Source: Aurelia coerulea
Taxonomy: Eukaryota; Cnidaria; Scyphozoa; Semaeostomeae; Ulmaridae
DNA: 64,000 nt
Assembly: GCA_039566865.1 (NCBI GenBank)
Contig: CM076961.1
Location: 11,617,501-11,681,500 of the forward strand
Direction: 5' to 3'
Within the stretch, counting starts at the first letter, position 1. Every line of letters starts with the position of its first letter. Shown here in pieces: positions 38,990-56,756 of this stretch. The position numbers and the translations under genes are program-made. The notes beneath the pieces were generated by a model. That model searched no databases and was not told the origin of the DNA. It saw nothing but the letters and a program-made list of their open reading frames with translations.

Positions 38990-39617
38990 ATGGCTAAGTT
39001 TCGCTTGACAGTTTGCCATTTTTGTCTCATCTGCAATATAGGTAAGTACTCTCTCGTCCATCTTCTCCAAAAAATGTCAGCAAGATTTGCACTTGTCTCC
39101 ATCTTCTTCTTGAATAGCTATCAGATTTTACGAAAAGGCCAGGTGAAAAACATTCATTTGATTTCAGAAGCAAAAGATGGTTTGGTGTCAGGGCATTGGC
39201 ATCTTTTGGGTCATCGGACACTTTGGTTAATGGTCTTCCATTGATGATCGACTCAATCTCGCAGAAGAGGGTCTGAAGTCCTTCGTCATCCAGCAGCTGC
39301 TTTCGAAGAAGTGCCTGCATTATCTTTCTTGTTGATCTGATGATTCGTTCCCGTACTCCACCCATATGAGAAGCTTTTGGAGGGTTTGGAATCCATTTCA
39401 TTTCCTGCTGCAGAAAGTGCTGATGTAGTTTGTCTTTATTCCATTGATCTATTGCTTCCTTGAGTTCTCGATTGCCACCAACAAAGTTTGTTCCATTGTC
39501 AGATCTCATTTCTTGTGGTCGACCTCTTCTTGACATGAAGTGTCTTAATGCATGAATGAAGGAATCTGTATCTATACCATGAATTACTTCGATATGAACA
39601 GCACGAACTGCCAAACA
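38990..39617 (-). pseudogene. BEL/Pao integrase core, distal part
   Basis: Reads RAVHIEVIHGIDTDSFIHAL, MRSDNGTNFVGG (second catalytic Asp), IPNPPKASHMGGVRERI, IESIINGRPLT and a region ending near WRQVQ. A frameshift near 39080 precedes KWQTVKRN-type sequence. The upstream half of the integrase is at 51019-51440, on the far side of the 11.4 kb foldback element. Confidence 0.87.
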
Positions 39618-39635
39618 TATGGCGGCTGATATGTG

Positions 39636-39778
39636 ACATCGAACATCTAACATCGAAGATCGAAGATCTAACATCGAACTTTATCATTTCTTCGTTTGAC
39701 GGGGGTTTACACTAGTTGGAAGGGCATAGAAACGCTTGCAGAAAAGCACCAGAAAGTAAAGGACTGACCCCCTGTAAA

Positions 39779-39811
<33 letters not shown>

Positions 39812-40416
39812 AGGTCTTGAATATCGAAGATCGAACATCGAATATCTAACATCTCGAAAATGGAACATCGAAGATCGAAGATCTAACATCGAAGATCGAA
39901 GATCTAACATCGAACATCTAACATCGAACATCTAACATCGAACATCGAACATCTAACATCGAACATCTAACATCAAAGATCTAACATCGAAGATCTAACA
40001 TCGAAGATCGAAGATCTAACATCGAACATCGAACATCTAACATCGAAGATCGAAGATCTAACATCGAAGATCGAAGATCTAACATCGAAGATCTAACATC
40101 GAACATCTAACATCGAACATCTAACATCGAACATCTAACATCGAACATCGAACATCGAACATCTAACATCGAAGATCGAAGATCTAACATCGAACATCTA
40201 ACATCGAACATCTAACATCGAAGATCGAAGATCTAACATCGAAGATCGAAGATCTAACATCGAAGATCGAAGATCTAACATCAAAGATCTAACATCGAAG
40301 ATCTAACATCTAACATTGAAGATCTAACATCGAGATCTAACATCGAACATCTAACATCGAACATCTAACATCGAACATCTAACATCGAACATCTAAAATC
40401 GAACATCTAACATCGA
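39636..40416 (+). repeat. Left heptamer array, unit AA(C/G)ATC(G/T)
   Basis: Nearly every 7 bases read AACATCG, AACATCT, AAGATCG or AAGATCT, about 100 units. It is broken at about 39695-39775 by non-repeat DNA. Just after the break a short stretch (39779-39815) is in the opposite orientation (GTTCGAT units). Confidence 0.9.
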
Positions 40417-40585
40417 GCAAAGAACATTTAAGACTACGACCTGTAAGATCCTGCCAACTTCCGGTTTGACCTTGGATTGCCGTTTAAATTGAATCGTCAT
40501 GGCTTACCAAGCAGTTGCAGAGAACAGAGCGCCATGTGTTATGCCGATTTACTTGCTGATTTTTAGCATTGGGAAAAATTTTCAC
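40417..40585 (+). repeat. Left inner inverted segment of foldback element
   Basis: About 170 bp, including CCAACTTCCGGTTTGACC and CACTTGCTG-like text, matching the reverse complement of 50232-50385 with a few changes. Confidence 0.85.
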
Positions 40586-40589
40586 GACC

Positions 40590-41330
40590 ACACCCTTTAG
40601 ATCGTTGAAAAACGCCCTGTTTTTGGATAATTTGCCATTTAAAGAAGCAAGGGATCACAGCTGATGAAGGTCTTTCCCAGAAAAGTTTGAAAATATAACT
40701 TAAATTTCCCGAGGATATAGACTATTTTTGAATTGCATAAAATCAAAAGTGATAGCTTGATAAATTCTGGTAACTTCCTCGAATATAGATAAGTTTGAAT
40801 CTTCATCTCCATCAACTTTGCATTCATAGCCCTTTTCACTGACAAAAATGAACAAACTTCTGCAAATTATTGAGGTGGCTGAAGCCCCCCCCCCAACCCC
40901 CCCCCCCAACCCCCCCGCTTCCGACGGGCCTGCCTCAATGCCTACCCTACCTTGAATATTTTTCAATATGTCGACGTTGTATGTAATTTTCTCTCCTTTC
41001 TATAATTTTATCCACATGCTTGGAGTGCTTCGAAGCTTTAAATTGATGAAACTATGGTGGTCTATTTTCACCAAAATTTCATTACTTTGACGCTTTAGAG
41101 GCTCATGTTACATTTTTAAATATTTCCCCGGGGGGAGGGTACTTCCATTATGGCCTAACAGGGGGTCCAGTCGGTTGTTAAAAGGGTCTTACCAAATGGC
41201 TACCAAATAGCCCTATTGGTCATACTATCAATTAGGGGTATTCTGAGATTCCTTGGCCAGCATCATTCTTATCCTTGCTGAAGGCCACAATAGGAGACAT
41301 TATTTGATCCACAAAGGCCCTGCCCACCAT
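40590..41330. other. Foldback core, no gene; C-rich tract
   Basis: No coding signal. A C-rich run with short AA breaks lies at about 40887-40918. The minus frame 40700-40966 reads through it (glycine-rich) and is not a gene. Confidence 0.4.
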
Positions 41331-41340
41331 GTGCAAGGCA

Positions 41341-41635
41341 CTTTTCAATTTGTTGCGGACTTTTTAAATTGTGCGAGCCACATTCGAATTATTTGCGGAT
41401 TTTTAAATTGTGCGAGGCGTATTTCAATTTGTTGTGGATATTTAAATTGTGCAAGGCGCATTTCAATTTGTTGCGGACGTTTAAAATTTTGCGAGACATT
41501 GAAAATTGTGCGAGGCGCATTTGAATTTGTTGCGAGCTTTTTAAATTGCGCGATGTACTTTTGCATTTGTTGCGGACTTTCTAACTTGTGCGAGGCATAT
41601 TTGAATTTGTTGCGGACATTTTAAATTGTGCTTTT
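41341..41635. repeat. ~40 bp tandem repeat, seven diverged copies
   Basis: The unit is approximately TTTCAATTTGTTGCGGACTT then TTTAAATTGTGCGAGGCGCA. The plus frame 41253-41624 (repeated LNCARRISICCG) is a by-product of the array. Confidence 0.85.
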
Positions 41636-41727
41636 GGTTCTTTAATTTTGCATTTAGCTTTGTAATTTCATGTTTTCTTTTGTTTATCTGCGATTCATTC
41701 TATAATTGTGCGACTCTTTTTATATTG

Positions 41728-42630
41728 TGCGTGACAGTTGTGGGCCACCGTAGAAATAAGATTCTTCAGTTTTTTTAGTGACTTGAGACCGCCACTAATC
41801 TTCCCGTTCACTTTGCTGAATTGTTCATCCCAGTTTAGCCCTTCATCCACTATAACCCCTAGTGTTTTGGTCTTCGCGACACGCTTAATTTCTGAATCAT
41901 TAACCCTAATCCTACGGGGCTTTTTTATCTAACATAGCCGGGGGGGGGGGTGTTTTCGAGCCACCCCTCTATAAATATCCGTAAACTATTGGGAAACCAT
42001 TGAAGCTTGGCAAGGGCATAGTCCTAACTATTCTTAGCCGAGTGGTAGTTTTGGGCGTGGCCATCTCATTAGGTGACATCATTAAGATGTCATAATGCTG
42101 GAAAATGTCAAAATAAATGGTTTTCCGGCTGATTTGTTCTAAAAACGGAATAAACGGAAAATCACTTTTTCCATTGTTATTTGGCGTATTATTAATTTCC
42201 AATTCAAATATGATGCATAGAGGTGTTTTTAGACTGTTATTTTGGAAGAAAATGACAAAAATTTATGGCATCATAACTACAAACTGTGTTTTTCCGCCGA
42301 AAATTGATAATAATTGGCTCAAAATGCTTTAAAAGTATTGCATAAGGTAACTCTATGCATTTTTAACAAAATCTGTTGGAAAAAACTTCAAAATTTGCCA
42401 AAATGACTCAAAATGGAAAACACCCCCCGCCGGTAGGGTTAGAGTTGAGATTCAGTGGTTCTGAAATTTCAACCTTATTTGTTCTCCGTGGATGGCCAAT
42501 AATCATGTATTGAGTTTTTTCGGGTTTGCAACTTAAAAAGAATGTCCAAATTGTTATTGTTTTAGTGGTAAATGGGTAGAGTTGTTGACTCTCGTGAACA
42601 TGTCTTTCGTATAAGAAAGCATGTCCCATT
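41728..42630 (-). pseudogene. nonLTR-G: thumb fragment split by a MITE
   Basis: Minus-strand 42600-42436 reads LSCKPEKTQYMIIGHPRRTN and VEISEPLNLN. Beyond the insert, 41930-41728 reads RVNDSEIKRVAKTKTLGVI, DEGLNWDEQFSKVNGKISGG and LKSLKKLKN. These are consecutive parts of a CR1-group ORF2 after the catalytic box. Confidence 0.72.
41937..42433. mobile_element. ~497 bp TA-flanked MITE with G-rich ends
   Basis: GCCGGGGGGGGGGTGTTTTC on the left, CCGGCGGGGGGTGTTTTC in reverse complement on the right, TA on both flanks (41935-41936, 42434-42435). The exact tips are uncertain because of the G-run. Confidence 0.7.
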
Positions 42631-42639
42631 GAGGGATCC

Positions 42640-43250
42640 GAAGACCATTATCTAAGCTTCAAAATCAATAGGCTCCCTGGTTTTGCTGCCCGATTTGGAA
42701 ATTTCTACATTTTTTCAATAGCAGTCACCCCAGCATTTCCCCAGACAGGACAGCAATTACTAACAGTGTCAGAAAGAAACATAAACTCTCATTGTAGGTC
42801 GGGTGTGCTTTTCGGAAAATTGGTAATAATAATAATCAACGAATATCTCAACAGGATAACCTAACAGTATTATTCAATATTTATTACAAAATGTCCTTTT
42901 AAAACTTACGACATTGAAATAAAATACTAGTGAAACTTAGATATTTACAGAAATAAATATCACCAAAATGGCTATCTAAATAATGTCTAAAAAGAAGTCT
43001 AGCTTCGATTTTCCTTGGCTGTAGAGGCAAGTGGTTGAATTCTTTTGCAGCCAAGAAATAAGTCCCTTTCGTCCAAATTCCGCTTTCATTAGTGGCAACT
43101 TTACTGATATTTCCTCATCCCTTCTGTTCTTTCCGTGTGTATTCTTATCATCATATCACAGACTTTCGTTGTAGATTATCAAAGACCAAAGTGCAAGCTC
43201 TTTTCTTTAGTTGCTGCATCAATTTTAGGTATACGTAGGTCAACAGTCAG
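42640..43250 (-). pseudogene. Non-LTR debris
   Basis: Near 42780-42650 a minus-strand reading gives SNCCPVWGNAGVTAIEK and FPNRAA-like text. Near 43150-43040 it gives VCDMMIRIHTERTEGM-like text. These match C-terminal regions of CR1-group ORF2 but are short and broken. The hAT-type element at 43259 interrupts this debris, which resumes at 49292. Confidence 0.45.
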
Positions 43251-43331
43251 GCTATTTGCAGTGGCGTAGCCAGGGTCCTGCCTTTGGGGGGGCAAGATGC
43301 GAGCGAAGCGAGCAAAAATGGGGGTCCGGGG

Positions 43332-43461
43332 TGTCGGATATTGAAGGGTGGACGCAGATAGTACACCATTTTGTTGTCTGCCTCGTGTATCAACCCTAAC
43401 TTAGATTCCGGGGGCCTGGGTCTTACATATATGATAATAATCATAACCATAAAACATTACA
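43332..43461 (-). repeat. Gypsy-2 3' LTR
   Basis: 130 bp, TG...CA, identical by eye to 47616-47745. Confidence 0.95.
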
Positions 43462-43577
43462 TCATTCCCCTTTTTTTTTGACAACATAAACATAACATAA
43501 CGTGTTTGTTCTTTGAGTCCTGTTCTCTTTGCATAGTATATAAAAATAAAAATAAAGAAATAAAATAAATTCTCCTC

Positions 43578-46398
43578 CTAGTCTGTTGCTACAACTGTTC
43601 CATATCTTTCGGGCATTCGTCTTTGTCTAACAGGATATCTGTTTTCTCTGTTATTCTCTTCAACTGTTTCTGTTCTTTTGTGATTGTCATCATCAGACAA
43701 TTCATCATCATCATCATCTTTCTTACTAAACTTTTTGAAAAAGCTAATATTTCTAGTGACTTTCCTTCCATCTTGTCTTTCTGCTGTTACTCTGGAACCT
43801 TTACGATATATAACTTTGTAATTAGTGCTTTCAAAGTTTGCAGAAAACTTGTTCTTTTTATCTTGTTTTAACAAAACTGTATCACCAACTTTGATATCAG
43901 AAATCTTTATTTGTGTGTCTTCTTTTATCTGCATAGCTTTTCATCTTCTCTTTCCCAACTGCATCATTTTCCTGAGCTTCTCTGTGTCTTTTAGATTTAC
44001 TTGTCTTGATTAAACAAGGTAGTTTCCCTCTAATGACCCTATTGTATAGCAGTTCTGAAGGTGCAATCTTTGTGGTTGCATGTGGGGTGGATCTATAACT
44101 CAATAAAAATCTTTGAAGTTCTTGTCTCCAATTTCTATTTTCTATACATGCAGCTCTAATTGCTTTTCCTAGAGGTTGATTAAATCTCTCTACCTCTGAG
44201 TTCCCTTGGGGCCATAATGGTGTAGAAGGGTCAAACTTTATTCCTAGAGTCATCAAGTATCTTTCAAAATCATCACCATTAAATGGTGGACCATTGTCTG
44301 TTACTATTTCTTCAGGAAGTCCATGCATTGCAAAAACTTGATCTAATTTTGGAATAATGGTTGGAGCAGCAGTAGATCTTACAATTTCTGTTATGGGGAA
44401 TCTAGAATAAGCATCTACAATAACAAGTATATACTCACTACTTGGAAGTGGTCCATAAAAGTCAATATGCAGTTTTTTCCAAGGTCCAGATGGCATAGGT
44501 CTCATTCGCAATGGTTCTGGTGCTTTTTGTGTTCCTACTGCTTGACAAGGTAAACAGCTACTAATCTCTTCTGTTACCAATTTTTCAATAAATGGAAACC
44601 AAACTTTTTCTCTGATCAGGGCTTTAGTCTTAGCAAGGCCCTGGTGACCCTCGTGAGCTAGTTTTACTGATCTTTTCCATAACGATTTAGGCATGACAAT
44701 TTGGTTTCCCCGCAAAATAATTCCATTTGCATGATTAATTGTCAATGAATCTTTGGCTAGCTTGTAAGGTACTAAAAGCTGGTTACTCCAATCTCCTGTT
44801 TCAATTGCCTTTATGACTGCTTGGAGTGTCCCATCTTTTTCTGTCTCTCTTTGTACTTCTTCTATGGTCATGGCTTTTGGTATCGCATTTATTGTTATAT
44901 ATCTCACATACTCATCTGCCATGTTTTCTTTGACACTGACTGTTGTAGGATGTCTTGACATGAAGTCAGCCGGATTATCTTTTCCAGGCTTGTAAATAAC
45001 TTTGAAACAATATTGCTGTAAGCGGAGCACCCATCTTTCAATGCGTAATGATGGTTTTGATTTAGGGTTCCCATAGATCACCTCCAAAGGCTTGTGATCT
45101 GTTATCAGGTTGAAACTTTTTCCATAAAGATACATATGAAAATGCTCAGTACCCCACACAATACTAAGTGCTTCTTTCTCAGTTTGTGAGTATCGACGCT
45201 CCACAGGGGTAAGTGCTCTACTGGCATATGCAATCACTTTTTGAGGCTCATCTTTGTTTGATTGTGCAAGAATTGCAGAAATACCAATGGGACTGGCATC
45301 TACAATCAGGTATGTTTCTTTTTCAATATCAAAATATGTCATAACTGGACTGTCCGTCAGAACATCTTTGAGTTTCTTAAATGCTTGTGAGTGTTCTTTC
45401 TCCCATTTGAATACAATGTTTTTGTGAGTTAATCTTCTCAGTGGTTCTGTTATATCTGCAAAATTTGGTATGAACTTTGCACTGAAATTTGCCATTCCTA
45501 ATAAACTTCTCACTTCTGATGCATTGTTTGGTATAGGAGCATCTACTAAATCTGCAATCTTCTTTTGATCTGGTTTGACACCATCTTCTGAAAATACCAT
45601 ACCAAAGAATGAAAGTTCTGGTTGTAAAAATTTACATTTTTCTCTGTTTACTGTGAGCTTTCTTGCCTTTAATCTTGCAAGACATTCATTCAATGCTTTA
45701 TCATGCTCTGCTCTGGTTTTGCCAAAAATGATAATATCATCTGCTAAGTTTCTGACATTATCTATACCCTTTAAAGCTTCTTGTAATGTATGTTGAAATA
45801 ACTCAGCAGCTGCATTTGTGCCATAGTTTAATCTTTTGTACTGGAATAAACCAATGTGCGTGCTGAACGTAGTGATATATCTGCTATCTTTGTGCAATTC
45901 TAACTGATGGTATGCTTGACTAAGGTCTATCTTTGAAAAGAATTTAGCTCCATTTAATTGTACCATAATTTCATCAACTGTGGGCATGACATGTCTAACT
46001 CTTTTTATGGCTGTGTTTGCTGAACGCATATCAACACAAATTCTAATTGACTTATTGTCCTTCTTTGGTACTGCAACTATCTGGGATATCCAAGGGGTTG
46101 CTTGCCCCTCTGGCACTCTCTCTATTATTCCTTGTGCTTCCAGACTTAACAATTCTTCTTCTACTTGCTTTCTGATGTGAAATGGTATACGTCTGGTATT
46201 TTGAACAACTGGAGTTACATTTTCATCAATGTTCAATTTAATTTGAACTCCATCTAACTTTCCTATTCCTCTAAACATTTCTTTATTTGCAAGTAAAGCA
46301 GCATCAACTGATTTATCATGGGTAGATCTGATAGGAATCCATGAACAGGTGGAAGCAATTTGTGGTTTCACATTTTTGTCTTTCACTTTTGAAACCAT
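43578..46398 (-). CDS. Gypsy-2 reverse transcriptase-RNase H-integrase
   Basis: The open frame 46398-43897 (833 codons) carries the reverse transcriptase (KIDLSQAYHQLELHKDSRY, an ADDIIIFG box), RNase H (LIVDASPIGISAIL, LITDHKPLEVI) and integrase. The integrase has an HEGHQ...CLPC zinc region, IDFYGPL, VTDNGPPFNGDD and NSEVERF as the catalytic triad. A frameshift near 43910-43930 moves the last ~110 codons (GDTVLL...KVTRNISFFKK and an acidic end) to the frame 43934-43578. Upstream it is in phase with Gag-protease but separated by the TAA at 46431-46429. There is no chromodomain and no envelope gene. Confidence 0.92.
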
Positions 46399-46428
46399 TG
46401 GATTGATGTGAAATGTAACAAGACCAAG

Positions 46429-47580
46429 TTATTGGGATGTCTCTGAACCTAATAGTGAACCAGAGTTCCCTTCTGTGACATAAAATGTGGCTACAGTAAT
46501 GCGCTTTTTGGTCTCCACAGTGGCTTGGAATTTTCCTAATAATTTCACAGGGCTGTTGCTGTTGTATGGGTACACTTTAACTGTTGTTTTCTCTAATTTA
46601 GGATCTGATGGTATCTGACTAAATGTTTCTTCATCAAGAATATTTACTGAGGCTCCAGTATCCACAAGTAAATCACATTTGTAATCACTGATTTTGGCAG
46701 TAACAGTGTTACCAGGTTTTTCCTTCTGTTTCACAGCATAGATGTAATCAAAATCTGAATCAGAATCACTTTGTGTTTTATCCACTGATTTTGTTGTAAT
46801 TGGCCTAACATGTCTTTTGAAAGGCTGTGTTTTCCTTGGCTCTTGTTGAGTTTTGCTCATACAATACTTTGCAAAGTGGTTCTTTTTCCCACATTTATGA
46901 CATATCTTACCAGCAGCTGGACACGTCTGGTTTTTATGAGGGTAAGATCCTCCACACTGATGACATTTCTTTGTTTGTACATGTCCTTTCTTGTGCTGAC
47001 TGTGTATTACACGATGCACTTCTTGCTTTATTTCAGTGTTACCTTCAATGCTACTTGCTTGCTGTGTACTTGTTTCATCTCTTTGGCCATCTAATAACAT
47101 TTCTTTCAGTGTGTATTTTGGATCTCGTAAAACTTTCTTTCTTAAACGACTTGATGATCCATTTGTGACAATTTGCAACAATATTTCGAACTCTTTTCTA
47201 TCCCCAAAGTCACAACGTGAGGCTAAGTTCTGTAATCGAACATGGAATTGACCTAAAGTCTCATTTGGCTCTTGTCTGGCCTGGCGAAATAAATATGTTT
47301 CATGAAGCAAGTTCTTCTGTGGCTCAAAATGTCCCGTGAGCTTTTCTAACGCTGTTTTGTAATCATCTCCATTATCTGGGATTGTATTCAGGATATCTGC
47401 AACTGGTTCTCCAGCCAAATAAATCAACAGGGCTCTTTTTCTTTTATCGTCTTTGATATCAGCAGCGACCAAGTACTGCTCGAATCTTGAAACCCAACGT
47501 TTCCATGCGTTACACGCGTTGGCAGGGTCTGACACTGCATCAAACGGGGGCACAGGTTGTATTGAACCAGCTCCTGCCAT
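46429..47580 (-). CDS. Gypsy-2 Gag-protease
   Basis: 383 codons from 47580. Capsid-like Gag (WKRWVSRFEQYLVAADIKDD, LTGHFEPQKNLLHETYLFRQ) precedes two zinc knuckles (CHQCGGSYPHKNQTC and CHKCGKKNHFAKYC), a Ser/Asp patch and a retropepsin with DTGASVNILDE. The frame ends at TAA 46431-46429, then continues in the same phase into the reverse transcriptase frame. By comparison with Gypsy-1, a Glu codon stands at that place, so the TAA is probably one nonsense mutation rather than a designed stop. Confidence 0.92.
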   Translation of the reverse strand: MAGAGSIQPVPPFDAVSDPANACNAWKRWVSRFEQYLVAADIKDDKRKRALLIYLAGEPVADILNTIPDNGDDYKTALEKLTGHFEPQKNLLHETYLFRQARQEPNETLGQFHVRLQNLASRCDFGDRKEFEILLQIVTNGSSSRLRKKVLRDPKYTLKEMLLDGQRDETSTQQASSIEGNTEIKQEVHRVIHSQHKKGHVQTKKCHQCGGSYPHKNQTCPAAGKICHKCGKKNHFAKYCMSKTQQEPRKTQPFKRHVRPITTKSVDKTQSDSDSDFDYIYAVKQKEKPGNTVTAKISDYKCDLLVDTGASVNILDEETFSQIPSDPKLEKTTVKVYPYNSNSPVKLLGKFQATVETKKRITVATFYVTEGNSGSLLGSETSQ

Positions 47581-47615
47581 TTTCTTTTTCTTTCCTAGTT
47601 TATTCTCGTCGCCAT

Positions 47616-47745
47616 TGTCGGATATTGAAGGGTGGACGCAGATAGTACACCATTTTGTTGTCTGCCTCGTGTATCAACCCTAACTTAGATTCCGGGGGCC
47701 TGGGTCTTACATATATGATAATAATCATAACCATAAAACATTACA
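47616..47745 (-). repeat. Gypsy-2 5' LTR
   Basis: 130 bp, identical to the 3' LTR, followed in element orientation by ATGGCGACGA. Confidence 0.95.
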
Positions 47746-47750
47746 CGGGG

Positions 47751-49250
47751 GCTTGCCCCCGGAAAAATTTTTGGGGGCCACGCCCTTTAGAATGCCGGAA
47801 ACACCCTCTTTTAGACAAAGCCACCCAGAATCGAAGAATAAAAAGACCAAGTTCATTAAAGTTGCAGATGAAAATTTAGCTACTTGGAGTTGCCTACTCC
47901 CAGGACAAAAACAAGAATATGCCTGAACAATACGAGCAGATGAACTAGGTTCATTAAAAGTTTCAATGCCACTTTAAAAAGCAATCAATGACAGCTTCCC
48001 TTCTTCTTTTAGTCTTATTTAAATTCTAATCAAAATTTTGTAGTTTAGAAACTCTAATGTTATTGCTAACATCAGAATACCCATATCATGCGTGGTAGAT
48101 TGATTGGAACACTTGTGAGCAGAAGGGTTGATTGACCCATCGAGGGCTCACGAAGAATGCTAAGGGTTTGGGCCCATGAAGAAGGTTTTATACCATCGTT
48201 TGCCAACTTCAATTTTTATTCGTCTGTCGTCTTGAAACTCTTATCAAAGCGCTAGAAAAACAGCAAATGCTCGTGCAATCGAATGGTGACGTTTAATGAG
48301 CATAAGAAACATAAAGAGAATGCAGCGGTGTGGCCAGGATAAATAAAGTGGGGGGCACTACAACGAGGGGGCCTGGGGGCGAAGCCCCCAGGAAAATTTT
48401 TGGGGCCACGCCCTTTACTTTGGCTTAGAATGCATCTTCCAATAGCCTGCTTGCCTTTAGAGACAAGGAAACCTTGATCGTTTTGTGGCAGTTAATGTAT
48501 GAATCAGAACACGAGAAAAATTTTTGAAAAAAGATCCTTTACTTTGGCTTAGAATGCGTCTCCCAATATCATACTTGCCAGTGCCAAGATTTGACATTTA
48601 TCGGAAAATTCTTTACCAACCTATACCCAGCTATTTTCTCTTCGGTTTTAGATGAAATTTTTGAGAAGCACACATTGACTTTCAGGGCATTTTCGAAAAG
48701 AGGGGCACTGTCGATAAAATTGAGGAAGGCTTAAGTAAATGCTAGATGCATCTGGGAGTGTAGAAATCACGATGAAGTAGACCCGAATTAGACAAGTGGC
48801 AGCATAGACATAGAAGTGCGAGCGAAGCGAGCAGAAATTTCTGAGAAGCACTTAATTTGATTTATATTCTTTCCCAAATAGGTGCAATACACATATACAG
48901 TTAAAGGGGCACCTAAGTCGGGTTCATTGATTCTAATAAAGCTGCAATGTCTGGACGTGATAACAAGCCAAGCGGTAGTATGATGTTATACGAGACATAC
49001 TATGACAGATGTTTGGAATTGCGAGCGAAGCGAGCAAAAATTTTTGCCATCCCTGTTGACTAAATGATGCGAAGATGCCATTTATTAGTTAAAGGATTGA
49101 CTTCCTTTTCCCCTTTTGACATTCACAAACAGCGCTGCGACAACTGTTGGAGGTAAATACAACTTACCCCCCCCCCCCCTTCAGTTTCTCAACGGATTTG
49201 GAAGAATCTCGAAAACCACCTTTGGCGATGATTGGGGGGGCGGCCACCCC
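47751..49250. other. Body of hAT-type element, no gene
   Basis: Contains a partial internal duplication: CCTTTACTTTGGCTTAGAATGC occurs near 48412 and 48536, each followed by TCT(T/C)CCAATA. It also has GGGGG-rich short palindromes such as CCTGGGGGCGAAGCCCCCAGG near 48371. Short frames (48648-48851, 49116-49415) are low complexity or repeat-derived. Confidence 0.5.
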
Positions 49251-49524
49251 CCCCCCCCCCTTGCCCCCCTGGCTACGCTACTGGCTATTTGTCTTTATAA
49301 CAACTCCTGCTATGCGCTCAATGCTTTCAATTTTGCTCTTGTACTACTGAGACCGAGCAAGGGCGGGCATGTCACACTGCGAACCATGGTCCTACCTTTG
49401 TCCGAAAACCGGTAGCTAACTACCAAATTTTGCACCACCTTTGTCCCAAAAACTGGTAGTTTTTGATGGCAAATTTCCGCTGCTATTTTTTTTCAATTTT
49501 GCGGACAATTTCTACATGATTTTA

Positions 49525-49618
49525 TCATTGACGAAATGACGGCAGCTTGTTGAAAACAATTGAATGACCAACTTTGTCGAACGCTTTTGATAGATCAATG
49601 AAAAGGAACGGGTATGTT
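49525..49618 (-). pseudogene. Non-LTR RT motif A fragment
   Basis: A minus-strand reading KTYPFLFIDLSKAFDKVGHS and IVFNKLPSF matches motif A of CR1-group reverse transcriptases. It probably belongs to the same debris as 42640-43250. Confidence 0.6.
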
Positions 49619-49720
49619 TTTGAAGCTTCGATGGCACGTCCCCGACCAAAACTTGGCCAAGTGCCCCCCGGGGTCATGATACCGCAATACTGCACGAAAA
49701 AGACACCAAATACCGCAATA

Positions 49721-50109
49721 CACTCATGTTTTTTTATAAGAAACCGCTTATAAGAAACGGTAGGCTCAATTTTTCGAAAGTTAAGAAACAACCCTACCTG
49801 GATTTTAAAAGCTAAGAAACTTTTGTAATTTACAGTTTTAATTTTCCTGTCGCAATCAAATATTTTTGACTCTGTACAGTTATTATTGCTACTGCTTGGA
49901 CATTATTTTGAGTGCGAATTATGTTATTGACTTGTTTTGAGATTTTACTGAGTAATTTGGGAACCCTTCAGACAAAACAAGATTAAATCTACACTTCTGG
50001 CATTAAAAATATAAGAAAAATGTAAGAAACTTTTGGTAGCAAAATGGCCCAAAAATTTAGGAAACTGCCTACTAGCCCCCGACCTTAGTTTCTTATAAAA
50101 AAATGAGTG
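49721..50109. mobile_element. 389 bp TA-flanked MITE, CACTCAT ends
   Basis: CACTCATGTTTTTTTATAAG on the left mirrors the right end (TTCTTATAAAAAAATGAGTG). TA lies at 49719-49720 and 50110-50111. Degenerate TAAGAAAC units recur inside. Sequence near 35660 is related. Confidence 0.72.
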
Positions 50110-50231
50110 TACCCAACCAAAATATAGCAAAATACCGCAAAGCGCTGGAAAACTAAAAAACATGGTTATCAACAACTTATTTCGAAGGATTAGAAAATGA
50201 CCGCTATGTCCACGTTTTAGGTTTTTCCCTA

Positions 50232-50385
50232 TACTAAAAGTCAGCAAGTGAATTAGCATAACACATGGCGCTCTGTTGGCTGCAACTGCTTGGTAAGCCA
50301 TGGCGATCCAATTTAAACGGCAATCCAAGGTCAAACCGGAAGTTGGCAGGATCTTACAGGTTGCGTAGTCTTAAATGTTCTTTGC
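50232..50385 (-). repeat. Right inner inverted segment of foldback element
   Basis: Reverse-complement match to 40417-40585, including the GGTCAAACCGGAAGTTGG region. Confidence 0.85.
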
Positions 50386-51000
50386 TCGATGTTAGATGTT
50401 CGATTTTAGATGTTCGATGTTAGATGTTCGATGTTAGATGTTCGATGTTAGATGTTCGATGTTAGATCTCGATGTTAGATCTTCAATGTTAGATGTTAGA
50501 TCTTCGATGTTAGATCTTTGATGTTAGATCTTCGATCTTCGATGTTAGATCTTCGATCTTCGATGTTAGATCTTCGATCTTCGATGTTAGATGTTAGATG
50601 TTCGATGTTAGATGTTCGATGTTAGATCTTCGATCTTCGATGTTAGATCTTCGATCTTCGATGTTAGATGTTCGATGTTCGATGTTAGATGTTCGATGTT
50701 AGATGTTCGATCTTCGATGTTAGATCTTCGATCTTCGATGTTAGATCTTCGATCTTCGATGTTAGATCTTCGATCTTCGATGTTAGATCTTCGTTGTTAG
50801 ATCTTCGATGTTAGATCTTCGATGTTGGATCTTCGATCTTCGATGTTAGATCTTCGATCTTCGATGTTAGATGTTAGATCTTCGATGTTAGATCTTCGAT
50901 GTTGGATCTTCGATGTTAGATCTTCGATCTTCGATGTTAGATGTTCGATGTTAGATCTTCGATCTTCGATGTTGGATCTTCGATGTTAGATCTTCGATGT
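50386..51000 (-). repeat. Right heptamer array
   Basis: About 88 units of the same 7 bp repeat read on the minus strand (AACATCG, AACATCT, AAGATCG, AAGATCT), with a few CAACATCG variants. The plus frame 50612-50800 (repeating MLDLRSS) is a reading of the array. Confidence 0.9.
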
Positions 51001-51018
51001 CACATATGAGCCACCATA

Positions 51019-51440
51019 CAAACATGTGAAAAGTACACCATACCTTTTTTCTTGACAACGTCTTCTCTTCACCGTGAACGGTCCAAAACAGTCGTATGCA
51101 ACATACGTAAACGGAGGCATAGCAGGACTGACTCGATCTGATGGTAAATCTGCCATCTTTTGCAGGCCAGGCTTCTGTTCTGGGTCAGAGCCATCATGTA
51201 TGATTGTCAGCCTGTTTGCAACAAATGCCTGGAATCTTCTGTTTTCATTGTAAATGTACCTCAAAACTGCTTGGCTATCAGTCCAAAATAATGATTTGTT
51301 GATTTCGCAGTCGAGCTCCTTTCTGATCATTTGGTCCAATTTGCTGATAACTCAAGACGTGGAATTGTCATATACTTCGAAGGGGATAGTCGTGACTTTC
51401 CAGTTACGAATGCACAGTGAACCGCGCCTTTGTTATTAGT
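51019..51440 (-). pseudogene. BEL/Pao RNase H to integrase junction
   Basis: Minus-strand 51440-51350 gives GAVHCAFVTGKSRLSPSK and TIPRLELSA. Then 51339-51019 gives SLFWTDSQAVLRYIYNENRR (RNase H Asp), and after an apparent internal deletion of the integrase zinc region, FTYVAYDCFGPFTVKRRR and KRYGVLFTCL. Translation past FTCL runs into the foldback tip. Confidence 0.85.
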
Positions 51441-51967
51441 CATTTTTAGTCATTTAAACCTGTGCAAGCTGCCAACAATTAAGACATTTGGCTTTGGACT
51501 CGAATCACTGTCTTTTCGGGGTAGTTTCCTATGGAATACTCTTGATGACAGAATCAAACAAGAACCAACACTGTCGCGTTTCAAAAAGAGGATCAAAGAA
51601 TGGACTCCAGAGAGATGCACCTGTAAAATATGTCGTTAAAAATATTTTTTTTCTACCGGGTGTCCCAAAATGATGTATTATCGTTTAGTCGCTTATATGT
51701 CCATAACCGATGAACCGATTTTCAAAAACTGGTAAAACCATAGCAAACATCTTTAAATACAATTTAGCCTTTAGGCAATCTAATAAAACAAAGTGTTTGA
51801 AAATCGGTTAGTTGGTTATGGACATGTAAGCAATGGGACGATAATACATCATTTTGGGACACCCGGTACTTTGTATATATTATGTTTGTAAATAGTTGGT
51901 TTGAATTAGTATTATCTTTATACTACTGTAAATACCAACTTTAAATATTGATATTGATTGATTGATT
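51441..51967 (+). pseudogene. nonLTR-F: 3' end of a CKICR-tailed element
   Basis: The coding end (LESLSFRGSFLWNTLDDRIK then RFKKRIKEWTPERCTCKICR and stop at 51639) resembles nonLTR-N. The 3' UTR contains a 211 bp MITE (51656-51866) and ends in GATATTGATTGATTGATTCA at about 51948-51967. It is inserted antisense in BEL RNase H. A short TCATT may be the target duplication. Confidence 0.78.
51656..51866. mobile_element. 211 bp near-palindromic MITE, CCGGGTGTCCC ends
   Basis: Ends CCGGGTGTCCCAAAATGATG on both sides, extending with mismatches through most of its length, so one strand could fold into a long hairpin. TA flanks it (51654-51655, 51867-51868). No coding. Confidence 0.88.
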
Positions 51968-52515
51968 CATTCTGATGTATGAGACTGTTCCATAACCATC
52001 TTCAGAAGCATCTGAGAAATGGTGTAGCTCTGTCATGTTTGGTTCACCAAATGTTTCTGGCTTGAAGCATCTGTCAACAGAAAATTCTTGAAGTGTTTGT
52101 AGTTCTGCAAGCCATTGCTTCCAACATTGAAGTTCTTCTTCTGGGGCAGGATCATCCCATGCAAGCTTCTTCCGACCAAGTTGATGTAGAATCATCTTTG
52201 CTCGAAGGATAAACGGTGAGACAAATCCAATGGGGTCATACACTGATGATACGATGCTCAATATACCTCGTCTTGTGTCTGGCTTGTCCTTGAAACCAAT
52301 GTTGTATTGAAATTTATCTTTTTCTGTATTCCATTGGAGACCCAAGGCTCTTTCAGTTGGGAGCGTGTCCTTTTCAAAATCTACATTCTTCAATTCCTTT
52401 GATAACTCAGAGTCTGGAATGACCTCCAATACTTCTGGCTTGTTACTTGTCCATTTCGTCAGATGGAATCCTCCATGAGATAGCAGCTCAGTAACTTCTT
52501 TGTACATTTTGATTG
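51968..52515 (-). pseudogene. BEL/Pao reverse transcriptase end to RNase H start
   Basis: The open frame down from 52507 gives LLSHGGFHLTKWTSN, LPTERALGLQWNTEKDKF, YDPIGFVSPFILRAKMILHQ and MTELHHFSDASEDGYGTVSY (RNase H catalytic Asp in FSDAS). Both edges are later insertions. Confidence 0.88.
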
Positions 52516-52606
52516 CAGATTGTGTATTTCTGCATATTGTGTTGTTGTTGTTGGTGTATTGGAGTACAGACGTGTTTTTCGAGAGTTGTGAAATTTTCTG
52601 AATAAA

Positions 52607-53939
52607 ATGGTGAAATCTTCAAAATCCGATGGCAGAATTGATCTGTGTGAAGCTAATGCTGTTATTAAAGCAATTGATTTGGTTAGGAAAAAGAATAAAG
52701 GCCAGTATCTGGATAATATAGCTGAAATTTGTGCCACTGAATACGAATGGAGCTGCGATGAAACCATTGAAGCGTTAAAGGTTGCAAAAACAAAGAACCT
52801 GATAAAGGAAGTGTTATACAATGAAAAGATTTCTTATCGCATCATCGAATCGACAAATGATTTCACTGCTCACGTTGAGCCTGAGTCCTCTGAATCGGCA
52901 AGTATCGCTGATACCGTAATTTTGGGCGCTGACGGTACGACAGACTTCGAGGATTTTAAAAAATTTATTCATGGAGAGGTACTCAACCTTAAATCCCAAC
53001 TAGAAAGCCGTTTGCCTTCAGCCCCGAGCCCGGCCCCGAGACCTGCGATAGACTATGAACGAGCTTTTATCAAAAGTCTCGAGCATAGAATTTTATCTCT
53101 GGAGAAGCAGCTAGATGACAAACAATCCATCATTAATAAATTGCTTGCTGAGAGGGCATCATCAAATCTAAACGCGCTTGGGCAGCGAGGAAACCGCTCA
53201 GCCGTAGTAAAGGACAATGAAGCCCATTCAGTCCATTCAAACGATACAAAGACGTCCGCACCTCCAAACAAAGAAATCAATGGCTTGCCAAAACAACAGC
53301 AAAGTGCAGCTAAAGTGTCAACAACAAGAAACCCCGAACACAAAAACAAACCAGGAAGCAAACCTGCGGGTGACAAGAAGAAGACGGAAACATCAAGTGT
53401 AAATGGAAACGAAGGGCAGGAAAAAGCTCAACCTGAGAAGAAGGATATAAGAAAGCGAGTCTTTATCGTCGGTGACTCAATCCTAAATGGCATCAGTGAA
53501 TATGGCCTCAACAAAAGTCACGATGTGAAAGTACGACCCCACAGTGGAGCTACGACGCAAGACATCAAGGACCATATTAGGCCAATAATCAGAAGAAAGC
53601 CAGATTTAATTATAATTCATGCAGGAACGAATGATTTGACGAAGGGATGTAATACCGTGGATGAAATGAATGAACTCATTGATGCTGCGAAAGAGTGACT
53701 CCCCCTCAACTGAAATCGTGATCTCATCATTAACGACAAGAAGAGACAGTATTGGAATGCCGAAGAAAGTAAAGAATTTAAACAGAAAGCTGAAAGATGC
53801 CTGTGATAAACACCACATAAAGATGATAGATAATTCGAACTTAGATGTTGAATGTTTGAGTGCTAAGAACTTACATCTTAATCCAAGAGGTAATTCATTA
53901 TTAGCTAGAAACTTTTTGAATTTTATTAATGACTTTTGA
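52607..53939 (+). pseudogene. nonLTR-E ORF1 (unknown N-domain plus SGNH esterase-like domain), one frameshift
   Basis: ORF1 proteins bind element RNA. Residues 1-70 form a compact region (DLCEANAVIKAIDLVRKKNK to NEKISYRI) that looks like a winged-helix type fold, by inference. A short coiled coil lies at about 145-185, followed by a low-complexity Gln/Lys/Ser linker. An SGNH hydrolase domain begins at about residue 283 (RVFIVGDSILNG) with HAGTNDLTKG as block III. A one-base insertion near 53695 (after DAAKE) shifts the frame. The rest reads in 53670-53939 and ends KNLHLNPRGN...FINDF. Block V lacks the usual Asp three residues before His. The stop TGA is directly followed by the ORF2 ATG. Confidence 0.8.
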
Positions 53940-56756
53940 ATGCTTGACGAACTCAATCATAACCCGACCAGTGAAACGGTAGGACCTGTGATGACATCAA
54001 CTGACGTTGACGCAGTAACTAGGGATAATAAATCTAATGATACCTGTGAAACATTGCACAGCTCTCCTCGAGTAAATGAGGTGACGAAGCAAGCGGGATC
54101 ACTCGGTTTTCGGAAGGGGATGGTTATTGCTTCTCTGAATGTCAATAGCTTGCCCTTGCATAAAGATGAACTTTCGACGTTTATCAACGATAAAGGGATT
54201 CACATTCTTGCACTTAATGAAACAAAACTTGATAAAAAAACACCAAAGCAACTGATGAATATCAAAAATTACAAAATTGAACGGGAAGACCGTAACAAGC
54301 ACGGGGGCGCGGTTGCAATTTACATTAGAGAGAGCATAAACCACTCACGACGAGACGATATTCCATTAAATGGCCTAGAGCTCGTCTGTATCGAAATTAA
54401 GCCCGTCAAAGCAAGCCCTTTCATAGTTGTTGCTTGGTACCGACCACCCAGTGGTCCCGTTGCGACATTCGAAAAATTGGAACAAGTTCTCAAATTCTTG
54501 AAGGTGTCGTTAAGTGATCATTATATGATCTTCTGCGTTCGGAAGTACCGTGGAGCCTTAAAAGGACAGCACAAAAAAATTACTACCCGTCAAATGAAGG
54601 ACTTTGATCAGAATAGTTTCCTTTCTGATATTTCCTCTATTGACTGGGATTCAATCCTCAACTTTAGTAAGGATATAAATACAGCTGTAGAAAATTGGTC
54701 AAATGTACTGTCGATGATCATAGAAAAGCATGCGCCCATGCGGCATCGGAGAGTTTCTGAAAAGTACTGCCCCTGGATTACTAGTGAGCTAAAAGCTTCA
54801 GCTAGAACGAGAGACCGTCTGAGAAAATCGGCGGTAAAAGCTGGATCTGAGATCCTGATGACTGCTTACCGGCATGTCAGAAATGTTGTTACCAAACAAA
54901 ACAAAGCACTAAAACGACAGTACTTTTCTGAGAAAATTCAACGCTGCGAGGGTGACATGAAAGAAACTTGGAAGACTATTAATCAGCTGGTTAATAAGCG
55001 GTCTAAAACCACAAATGTTTCTTCACTACAAGAAGACAACAAAATCTTAACGAGTAGCGATGAAATAGCGGAGTCGATGAATCAGTATTTCTGCAGTATT
55101 GGACAAAAGCTAAGCGTAAAGATACCTTATGCAGAAAACCCACTTCTGCGTGGAGATTTTTCCATGAACAAAAATTCAACTGGGTTTCAGTTTAGAGCGA
55201 TAACACCGGCAGACCTCATGAAGGCAATGCAAAAGTTTAAGGTATCAAAGAGCTTTGGAACAGATGGCATCTCAAGCTATTTTCTTAAAATAGGGATGCC
55301 TGTTCTCGCACCAGTGCTGAGTACCATATTTAATAAATCGATTTCGGAGGGCTTATTTCCAAATAACTGGAAAGTTGCTAGAGTAGCTCCTATCTATAAA
55401 GAGGGTCCTACTGAAGATAGGTCAAATTACAGACCTATATCCGTGCTCCCTGTCGTTTCGCGTCTTTTTGAGAAGACAATCTTCGACCAACTTTACGCCT
55501 ACTTCGACGATAATAAGTTGTTCTACTCACATCAATCCGGCTTCAGGGCCCTGCACTCGGTTTTGACGTGCTTATTGAAGAGTAGTGATGATTGGTACCA
55601 TGATTTTGACAAAGGACTCCTTTCATCTGTAGTATTTATTGACTTGAAAAAAGCCTTTGATACTGTAGATCATGCAATTCTCATTCAAAAGCTTTGTCAT
55701 TATGGAGTGCGGGGAAGGGAGCTGGATTGGTTTAAATCATATTTACAGGATCGTAAGCAATGCTGTAAAGTAAATGGACATACATCAAAAATAGAGAACG
55801 TGAACTGTGGCGTACCGCAAGGTTCGTGTCTCGGTCCACTACTGTTTTTGATATACATAAATGATTTGCCCTGTGCGTTGCAAAGCACAAAAGTGACCAT
55901 GTATGCTGACGACACAAGCATTTCGTACTCATCAAAATCTATAGCCGAGATAAATGAAGCAGTTAATTCAGACCTTAAGAGGCTTCAGCTTTGGTTGGAA
56001 GGTAACAAACTTTCCCTTAATGTAGCCAAAACGCAAAGTATGATCCTCGGTTCCTCGAGTAATTTGAAGAAACATCATCTGGACAATGGAGATCCTGAGA
56101 TCAATCTCCATATAAATGAGGACAACCTAGATATAATTGGATCAAATAAGTATCTTGGCGTTCACATTGATTCCGAGCTTAAGTGGAGAGAACACATATC
56201 TTTTGCTGTAGGTAAGATTGCCAGAGCAATGGGCATGCTTAAATATGCTAAAAAATATCTCCCATTGGAAATAGTAAAAAACATGTATACAAGTATAGTT
56301 GAACCACATTTCAGAAACTGCTGCTCGGTGTGGGGTTGTTGTGGAGAAACCCTGCTCGATAAGCTGCAGAAGCTACAAAACCGTGCCGCACGAATTGTTA
56401 CTAACAGCTCATATGATGCGTCATCTCTTCCTTTGATTGGAAGGCTAGGGTGGTTAACTATAAAGGAAATGATAGAATTTGAAACTGCAACTATGGTTTA
56501 CAAGTCTCTCCATGGTTTAGTTCCTGAATATATACAGCTAATGTTTACAAAACTGTCGGAAAACAATTTACGGTCTCTCCGTAATACCGACACGGATCTC
56601 AGAATACCTCGCTTTACAACCTCTTACGGGCAACGTAGTTTCTCATATCGAGGTGTAACTGTGTGGAATACACTTAATACAGAAATAAAAAGTGCCCCTT
56701 CACTGGCCACTTTCAAAAATTTGCTGAAACAAGCTTTGAAGAATCAAAGGGTGTGA
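53940..56756 (+). CDS. nonLTR-E ORF2: endonuclease-reverse transcriptase, 938 codons
   Basis: ORF2 nicks DNA and copies element RNA into it. The APE-type endonuclease begins at about residue 60 (IASLNVNSLPLHKDE, LALNETKLDKK, KHGGAVAIYIRES, VVAWYRPPSG). The text then jumps from KLEQVLKFL to SLSDHYMIFCVRK, so the GDxN block and the following ~60-90 residues are missing without loss of frame. The reverse transcriptase is complete: SFGTDGISSYFLKIG, SGFRALHSVLTCLLK, FIDLKKAFDTVDHAIL at about 565, CGVPQGSCLGPLLFLIYIND, YADDTSISY at about 654, the thumb, and the FSYRGVTVWNTLN tail. RT looks active; the endonuclease should not be. The ATG follows the ORF1 stop without a gap. Confidence 0.9.
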   Translation: MLDELNHNPTSETVGPVMTSTDVDAVTRDNKSNDTCETLHSSPRVNEVTKQAGSLGFRKGMVIASLNVNSLPLHKDELSTFINDKGIHILALNETKLDKKTPKQLMNIKNYKIEREDRNKHGGAVAIYIRESINHSRRDDIPLNGLELVCIEIKPVKASPFIVVAWYRPPSGPVATFEKLEQVLKFLKVSLSDHYMIFCVRKYRGALKGQHKKITTRQMKDFDQNSFLSDISSIDWDSILNFSKDINTAVENWSNVLSMIIEKHAPMRHRRVSEKYCPWITSELKASARTRDRLRKSAVKAGSEILMTAYRHVRNVVTKQNKALKRQYFSEKIQRCEGDMKETWKTINQLVNKRSKTTNVSSLQEDNKILTSSDEIAESMNQYFCSIGQKLSVKIPYAENPLLRGDFSMNKNSTGFQFRAITPADLMKAMQKFKVSKSFGTDGISSYFLKIGMPVLAPVLSTIFNKSISEGLFPNNWKVARVAPIYKEGPTEDRSNYRPISVLPVVSRLFEKTIFDQLYAYFDDNKLFYSHQSGFRALHSVLTCLLKSSDDWYHDFDKGLLSSVVFIDLKKAFDTVDHAILIQKLCHYGVRGRELDWFKSYLQDRKQCCKVNGHTSKIENVNCGVPQGSCLGPLLFLIYINDLPCALQSTKVTMYADDTSISYSSKSIAEINEAVNSDLKRLQLWLEGNKLSLNVAKTQSMILGSSSNLKKHHLDNGDPEINLHINEDNLDIIGSNKYLGVHIDSELKWREHISFAVGKIARAMGMLKYAKKYLPLEIVKNMYTSIVEPHFRNCCSVWGCCGETLLDKLQKLQNRAARIVTNSSYDASSLPLIGRLGWLTIKEMIEFETATMVYKSLHGLVPEYIQLMFTKLSENNLRSLRNTDTDLRIPRFTTSYGQRSFSYRGVTVWNTLNTEIKSAPSLATFKNLLKQALKNQRV

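Follow-up and report, generated by a model that had tools for sequence, protein, structure and literature searches.

A stretch of 64,000 nucleotides from Aurelia coerulea (assembly GCA_039566865.1, contig CM076961.1, positions 11,617,501 to 11,681,500; hereafter the window) contains at 39618-51018 a foldback element whose ends are built of 7-bp tandem repeats. The question raised by this locus is what kind of transposase moves an element in which no transposase can be recognised. A sequence-only reading of the window had pointed out the inverted tips, the heptamer arrays and the matching inner segments behind them, had taken the whole for a foldback-type mobile element and had compared it with Galileo of the P superfamily. 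All these parts were located (Table 1), and the inverted array-built ends, the target site duplications and the further copies in the assembly bear out that 39618-51018 is a genuine mobile DNA element and a member of a family. The kinship with Galileo was not supported. Judged by its termini and duplications, the family very probably belongs to the IS3EU superfamily of cut-and-paste transposons as a non-autonomous member, served by an IS3-type transposase in trans and carrying its arrays as likely binding sites.

The foldback element and its family

The two arms of the element pair in inverted orientation, the best ungapped pair (39854-40438 with 50364-50948) being 585 nt long and 92% complementary. 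Tandem Repeats Finder (TRF) called the main array of the left arm with period 7 and 86.9 copies, and the array of the right arm with period 21 and 29.6 copies, with period 14 also called. The element thus has what defines the foldback class, namely extended inverted ends that consist of short tandem repeats and enclose a variable middle. Its reported size of 11.4 kb is right for the sequence as present, whereas the element proper measures about 7.0 kb once the retrotransposon at 43332-47745 is subtracted. This retrotransposon is a later, recent passenger insertion: its 130-bp long terminal repeats (LTRs) are 100% identical, it is flanked by a CGGGG duplication, and it encodes reverse transcriptase, RNase H and integrase, with long open frames of 414 and 843 aa. 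Three sister copies of the element (L009, L010 and L011; 6.3-7.5 kb) are without it, the adjoining core being 98-99.7% identical on both sides, and L010 is uninterrupted at the insertion point.

Table 1 Features of the foldback element and its target site (positions in the window)
Feature	Positions	Strand	Remarks
Whole foldback element as present	39618..51018	.	11,401 bp, nested retrotransposon included
Target site duplication CAAACA, left copy	39612..39617	.	single copy in 10/10 paralogous sites read
Left tip TATGGCGGCTGATATGTGAC	39618..39637	+	
Outer short heptamer array, left arm	39636..39679	+	TRF
Unique segment restricted to left arm	39680..39778	+	approximate limits
Main heptamer array, left arm	39819..40427	+	units ATCGAAC, ATCGAAG, ATCTAAC; TRF
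Inner unique segment, left arm	40417..40585	+	inverted counterpart at 50222-50385
Middle	40586..50221	.	differs among copies; no recognised transposase
Later nested Ty3/Gypsy-type LTR retrotransposon	43332..47745	-	LTRs 43332-43461 and 47616-47745
Inner unique segment, right arm	50222..50385	-	
Heptamer array, right arm	50386..50998	-	TRF
Right tip TATGGTGGCTCATATGTGAC, read inward	50999..51018	-	
Target site duplication CAAACA, right copy	51019..51024	.	
			

The CAAACA said to be duplicated at the insertion point is present at both ends, and its single form could be read at related sites. The left flank (39318-39617) has 24 other matches in the assembly at 95-98% identity, and all ten of those that were read as paralogous target sites are uninterrupted with one CAAACA. 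Beyond it, 52-54 of 54 right-flank bases agree in nine of these sites; the tenth (L072) agrees at 35 of 54, apparently through lacking a few bases further on. Neither of the outcomes that would have spoken against a mobile element was thus seen, that is, arrays that are independent satellites with no shared tips elsewhere, or an empty site without the single CAAACA. The description of the target as a BEL coding sequence was borne out in part: the BEL/Pao label depends on a Peptidase_A17 match in 51941-52618, while the two frames immediately adjoining the insertion had no match in Pfam at a threshold of E 0.001.

A genome search of the kind that the sequence-only reading had proposed did reveal a family with variable middles. 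With the left arm as query, 40 of 49 candidates were scored, and the structure was seen again at many further places, from which 28 loci (L009-L036) were fetched; since L023 and L036 are the two ends of one copy, these represent 27 copies, or 28 with that of the window. Both tips, identified with a pattern that tolerated up to 3 errors, were found in 23 of the 28 copies (not in L014, L017, L025, L031 and L035), whose lengths range from 268 to 11,568 bp. When the duplications of these 23 copies were tabulated, as had also been proposed, 18 showed a perfect 6-bp duplication and one (L032) a perfect 7-bp duplication, and no copy had a perfect duplication of 3-5 or 8-12 bp. The remaining four (L012, L013, L018 and L026) had no perfect duplication, with 4, 5, 0 and 5 of 6 bases matching, respectively. 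The tips of complete copies read TATGGYGGCT, giving the element termini TATGG..CCATA. A left-type tip was paired with a right-type tip in 21 of the 23 copies (the copy on C20, which covers two loci, was entered by hand), the exceptions being L013, both of whose tips are right-type, and a further copy in which one tip is unclassed. L029 and L030 have common flanks, those of L026 are nearly the same and those of L034 are similar, so these four may not be independent insertions.

Some individual copies and neighbouring sequences deserve mention. The similar flanks of L026, L029, L030 and L034 (..GGGGGTTAA / GGTTAAGGTAAA..) suggest that these copies inserted into another repeat or were spread together with it. 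L032 (349 bp) and L034 (268 bp) are miniature copies that retain both tips, and L013 is a 7.6-kb copy whose right array is greatly expanded with internal duplications. Judged by its 24 matches at 95-98% identity, the BEL-type target sequence belongs to a retroelement family that is itself young and multicopy. Next to it, at 53940-56756, lies a non-LTR retrotransposon with a long open frame containing endonuclease/exonuclease and reverse transcriptase domains.

Probable assignment of the family to IS3EU

The termini and the duplication length were then compared with those of known superfamilies, for which the papers cited here and below served in excerpt. As far as these excerpts go, TA..TA termini are a constant feature of complete IS3EU families, whose duplications are usually 6 bp long (PMC10045372), and fungal IS3EU elements have TAYGG..CCRTA termini and a 6-bp duplication (PMC12730594). 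The TATGGYGGCT tips of the complete copies and the perfect 6-bp duplication in 18 of 23 agree with both descriptions, and we assign the family to IS3EU because of this match and because elements encoding a transposase in the same assembly end in the same way. A search with the Pfam profile PF24764 (rva_4) gave 150 scored matches, all over the cut-off, out of 521 candidates, and many of them sit in open frames of 450-680 aa. We take the rva_4 domain to be the IS3EU transposase core, an assumption that gains support from two elements bearing it, both with TATGG tips and perfect 6-bp duplications. One, at C21:4676871-4686684, is 9,814 bp long, has a CTTATC duplication, identical tips of about 40 bp and an open frame of 526 aa; the other, at C6:26568809-26576558, is 7,750 bp long and has a CATTTT duplication. 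These two were recovered among seven transposase stretches (L044-L050) for which two-sided ends were sought. As further support for this assumption, all three proteins scanned had a strong rva_4 match, one of them also had rve over the cut-off, and HTH_21 was found in one, below the cut-off. Among the best 120 of 1,069 relatives of the C21 transposase, those bearing species names are from cnidarians (Montipora, Porites, Actinia and Paramuricea). By eye, the rva_4 matches crowd on contigs C5, C9 and C22, and recent activity is suggested by sets of copies that agree in score and frame length.

The same data bear on three other origins. Most assignments of foldback elements have been to Mutator, the P superfamily being an exception (PMC4079207). 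A P-superfamily element akin to Galileo and mobilised by a THAP-domain transposase is the least credible of the three: the long inverted ends that contain tandem repeats are indeed as in Galileo (PMC3688188, PMC4168063), but Galileo duplications are 7 bp, rarely 8, with the consensus GTATTAC (PMC4168063), against 6 bp in 18 copies, 7 bp in one and 8 bp in none of the 23 here, and the duplications of this family show no GTATTAC-like consensus. Pfam scans of the cores revealed no P transposase, although none of the searches was aimed at that transposase family. A foldback of the Mutator type, like Tetris or Tm1, is hardly more plausible. Such elements share composite inverted ends with tandem repeats (PMC4079207, PMC3169594), and in Tm1 the left and right tips also differ slightly (PMC3169594), but their duplications are 8-10 bp long, and none of the 23 copies has a perfect duplication of 8-12 bp. 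Both assignments were set aside on the duplication length in these 23 copies. An origin from another superfamily capable of 6-bp duplications is improbable; hAT6 would be an example, since hAT families with 6-bp duplications exist (PMC12730594), but the rva_4 elements of this assembly have the same tip type and duplication length as the family. In addition, the TATGG..CCATA terminus fits IS3EU rather than hAT.

Next, a transposase was sought within the family and in its surroundings. The frames of the long copies contain retroelement scraps and unknowns, and Pfam scans of the cores recognised no transposase. Scanning L009-L043 for the rva_4 motif, which was the only scan that covered the short copies, gave a single fuzzy match, in the flank of L024, attributable to chance; the seven further tip-like sites among these loci (L037-L043) had no rva_4 motif in six frames. 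Of the latter, L037 and L038 have no second tip that could be found, and L041 is a diverged relative. The earlier remark that no transposase is visible therefore extends to the copies examined, and a copy with a transposase between the same tips, which the same reader had suggested looking for, was not among them.

Several observations weigh against the IS3EU assignment and the part given to the arrays. No rva_4 gene was seen near any of the 55 places that match the 20-bp tip with at most 2 mismatches, the nearest being about 60 kb or more away (tip sites were compared by eye with the 150 listed rva_4 matches, the other 371 of 521 candidates being unscored). The left unique segment (query 39676-39790), used to look for an autonomous copy, has 30 matches in the assembly, all of them in members of the family or pieces of such members, one 40-base match on C16 not having been read. 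Of the transposase copies that belong to the same two families as the C21 and C6 elements, the one on C5 has both tips with unequal flanks and that on C20 has no left end that could be found; neither yielded a duplication. For L044, L045 and L046, no pair of tips with a duplication turned up in the fetched stretch. The C6 element has both tips and the 6-bp duplication without any array, which shows that arrays are not indispensable to an IS3EU element, and the array units are 7 bp in the window family versus 19-23 bp, with unrelated letters, in the transposase-bearing relatives. The partner may have been lost, may be absent from the assembly, or may use these ends despite having different tips.

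Overall, the termini and duplications suggest that the family is moved by an IS3EU transposase supplied by a partner. An IS3-type DDE transposase (rva_4/rve integrase core) would recognise the TATGGYGGCT tips, excise the element and reinsert it with a 6-bp staggered cut, the tips setting both cut and stagger. The inverted arrays of 7-bp units, as putative transposase binding sites, would form rows of extra sites that aid the enzyme in finding and pairing the ends. They would raise the local number of binding sites, as for the repeats of Galileo, two of which have been demonstrated to contain extra THAP-domain binding sites (PMC3688188).

Arrays beside rva_4 transposases

Unexpectedly, the ends of the C21 element are inverted arrays of a 21-bp unit behind the tips. 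The right array measures 451 bp according to TRF, and the left one roughly 330 bp as judged from its similarity to the right arm; this is the only rva_4 element for which arrays were read at both ends. We surveyed 1,851 bp near or 5' of the transposase at 15 rva_4 loci (10 newly fetched and five earlier, with the near-copies L047 and L049 excluded), counting arrays with a period of 18-24 bp, at least 3 copies and at least 60 bp, a criterion fixed only after arrays had been seen. Such arrays adjoin the transposase at 11 of the 15 loci, compared with one of 51 control stretches, which were taken from the window outside the element and from parts of L037-L041 and L043 and were unmatched for composition. 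With a post hoc criterion and such controls, the p value of 1.4e-8 is descriptive only, as is that of 2.4e-7, calculated from hand-entered counts, for the nine of 13 loci left when L061 and L065 are dropped as near-copies. One of the 11 array-bearing loci, L044, has just 3.8 copies. At L045, L050, L059, L060, L061, L062, L064 and L065, TATGG was seen by eye 7 to 170 bp outside the array, where it also arises by chance. Taken together, ends built of repeat arrays look like a trait that recurs among the IS3EU elements of this assembly. At L063 (C3:10088930-10090780), the 21-bp array units contain the tip-like TATGGTCATT, as if a terminal sequence had been multiplied.

Another interpretation of these data is that the element belongs to IS3EU and its arrays play no part in transposition, being by-products of replication slippage or unequal exchange kept as harmless. 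This is quite possible, if somewhat short of an even chance. Copies differ widely in the length of their arrays and the order of the units, as do the two arms of a single copy; four of the 15 rva_4 loci are array-free by the above criterion, as is the C6 element; and the one array among the controls also has a 21-bp period. Against this, arrays occupy both arms of the compared family copies, even the short ones, and the C21 element carries them at either end in inverted orientation. They also adjoin transposases of well separated lineages: in a tree of the 15 transposase domains, array-bearing loci fall on both sides of the midpoint root, and the array label requires 2 changes, as few as in 18 of 500 shuffles.

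Returning to arrays that serve the transposase, their periods may carry a further meaning. In the transposase-bearing relatives the periods are mostly 19-23 bp, and in the window family the 7-bp units have a 14- or 21-bp higher order; periods near two helical turns would place binding sites on one face of the DNA. We tentatively propose that separate IS3EU lineages, with or without a transposase, have inverted-array ends with a period near two DNA turns, which might act as a phased multi-site platform for the transposase. On this view, foldback ends would be a functional design that recurs among IS3-type integrase transposons and was reached independently of the P and Mutator foldbacks. Among five arrays of the family tested by self-match, lag 14 was best in three (window left, L016 and L024) and lag 21 in two (window right and L013), and in the right array of the window the value at lag 21 (0.848) hardly exceeds that at lag 14 (0.845). 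The higher-order period of the family arrays is therefore 14 or 21, and 21 bp as their general period was rejected. Because of the three arrays with lag 14, our expectation of a phased platform was lowered slightly, to its present tentative level.

Comparison with known systems

The family resembles IS3EU (GingerRoot) elements in its TATGG..CCATA termini and 6-bp duplications, and transposase-bearing members are abundant in the assembly; it differs in having no recognised transposase of its own and in its tandem-array ends, where inverted repeats of more than 30 bp are described in the excerpts for IS3EU. In the excerpts of PMC10045372, PMC12730594, PMC10853768, PMC8268682 and PMC5844308, which belong to the open-licence PMC literature (Repbase not covered), array-built inverted IS3EU ends are not described. 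The fungal, IS3EU-related Styx is likewise large, with IS3EU-related coding sequence and a 6-bp duplication setting in its authors' search, but it has 36-bp terminal repeats, and array-built ends do not appear in the excerpt (PMC10853768). The coral CMITE elements share with the family that they are non-autonomous DNA elements, but they are about 100 bp long, with TTAA duplications and piggyBac-type ends; identity with these piggyBac miniature inverted-repeat transposable elements was rejected (PMC2872659).

Since transposase-bearing elements with array-built ends occur in the same genome, the role of the arrays can be tested by binding and excision. Rearrangements are also likely to occur at such long inverted arrays.

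Among foldback elements, Galileo is similar in that tandem repeats lie within its long inverted ends and differs in its 7-bp duplications, another transposase and much longer repeat units. The Mutator-type Tetris and Tm1 share inverted ends with tandem repeats, non-autonomous copies and variable middles, and differ in their 8-10 bp duplications and in their units, 220 bp in Tetris and mostly 14 bp in Tm1 (PMC4079207, PMC3169594). If the assignment made here is true, an IS3EU foldback would add an unrelated type of enzyme that has reached the same end design.

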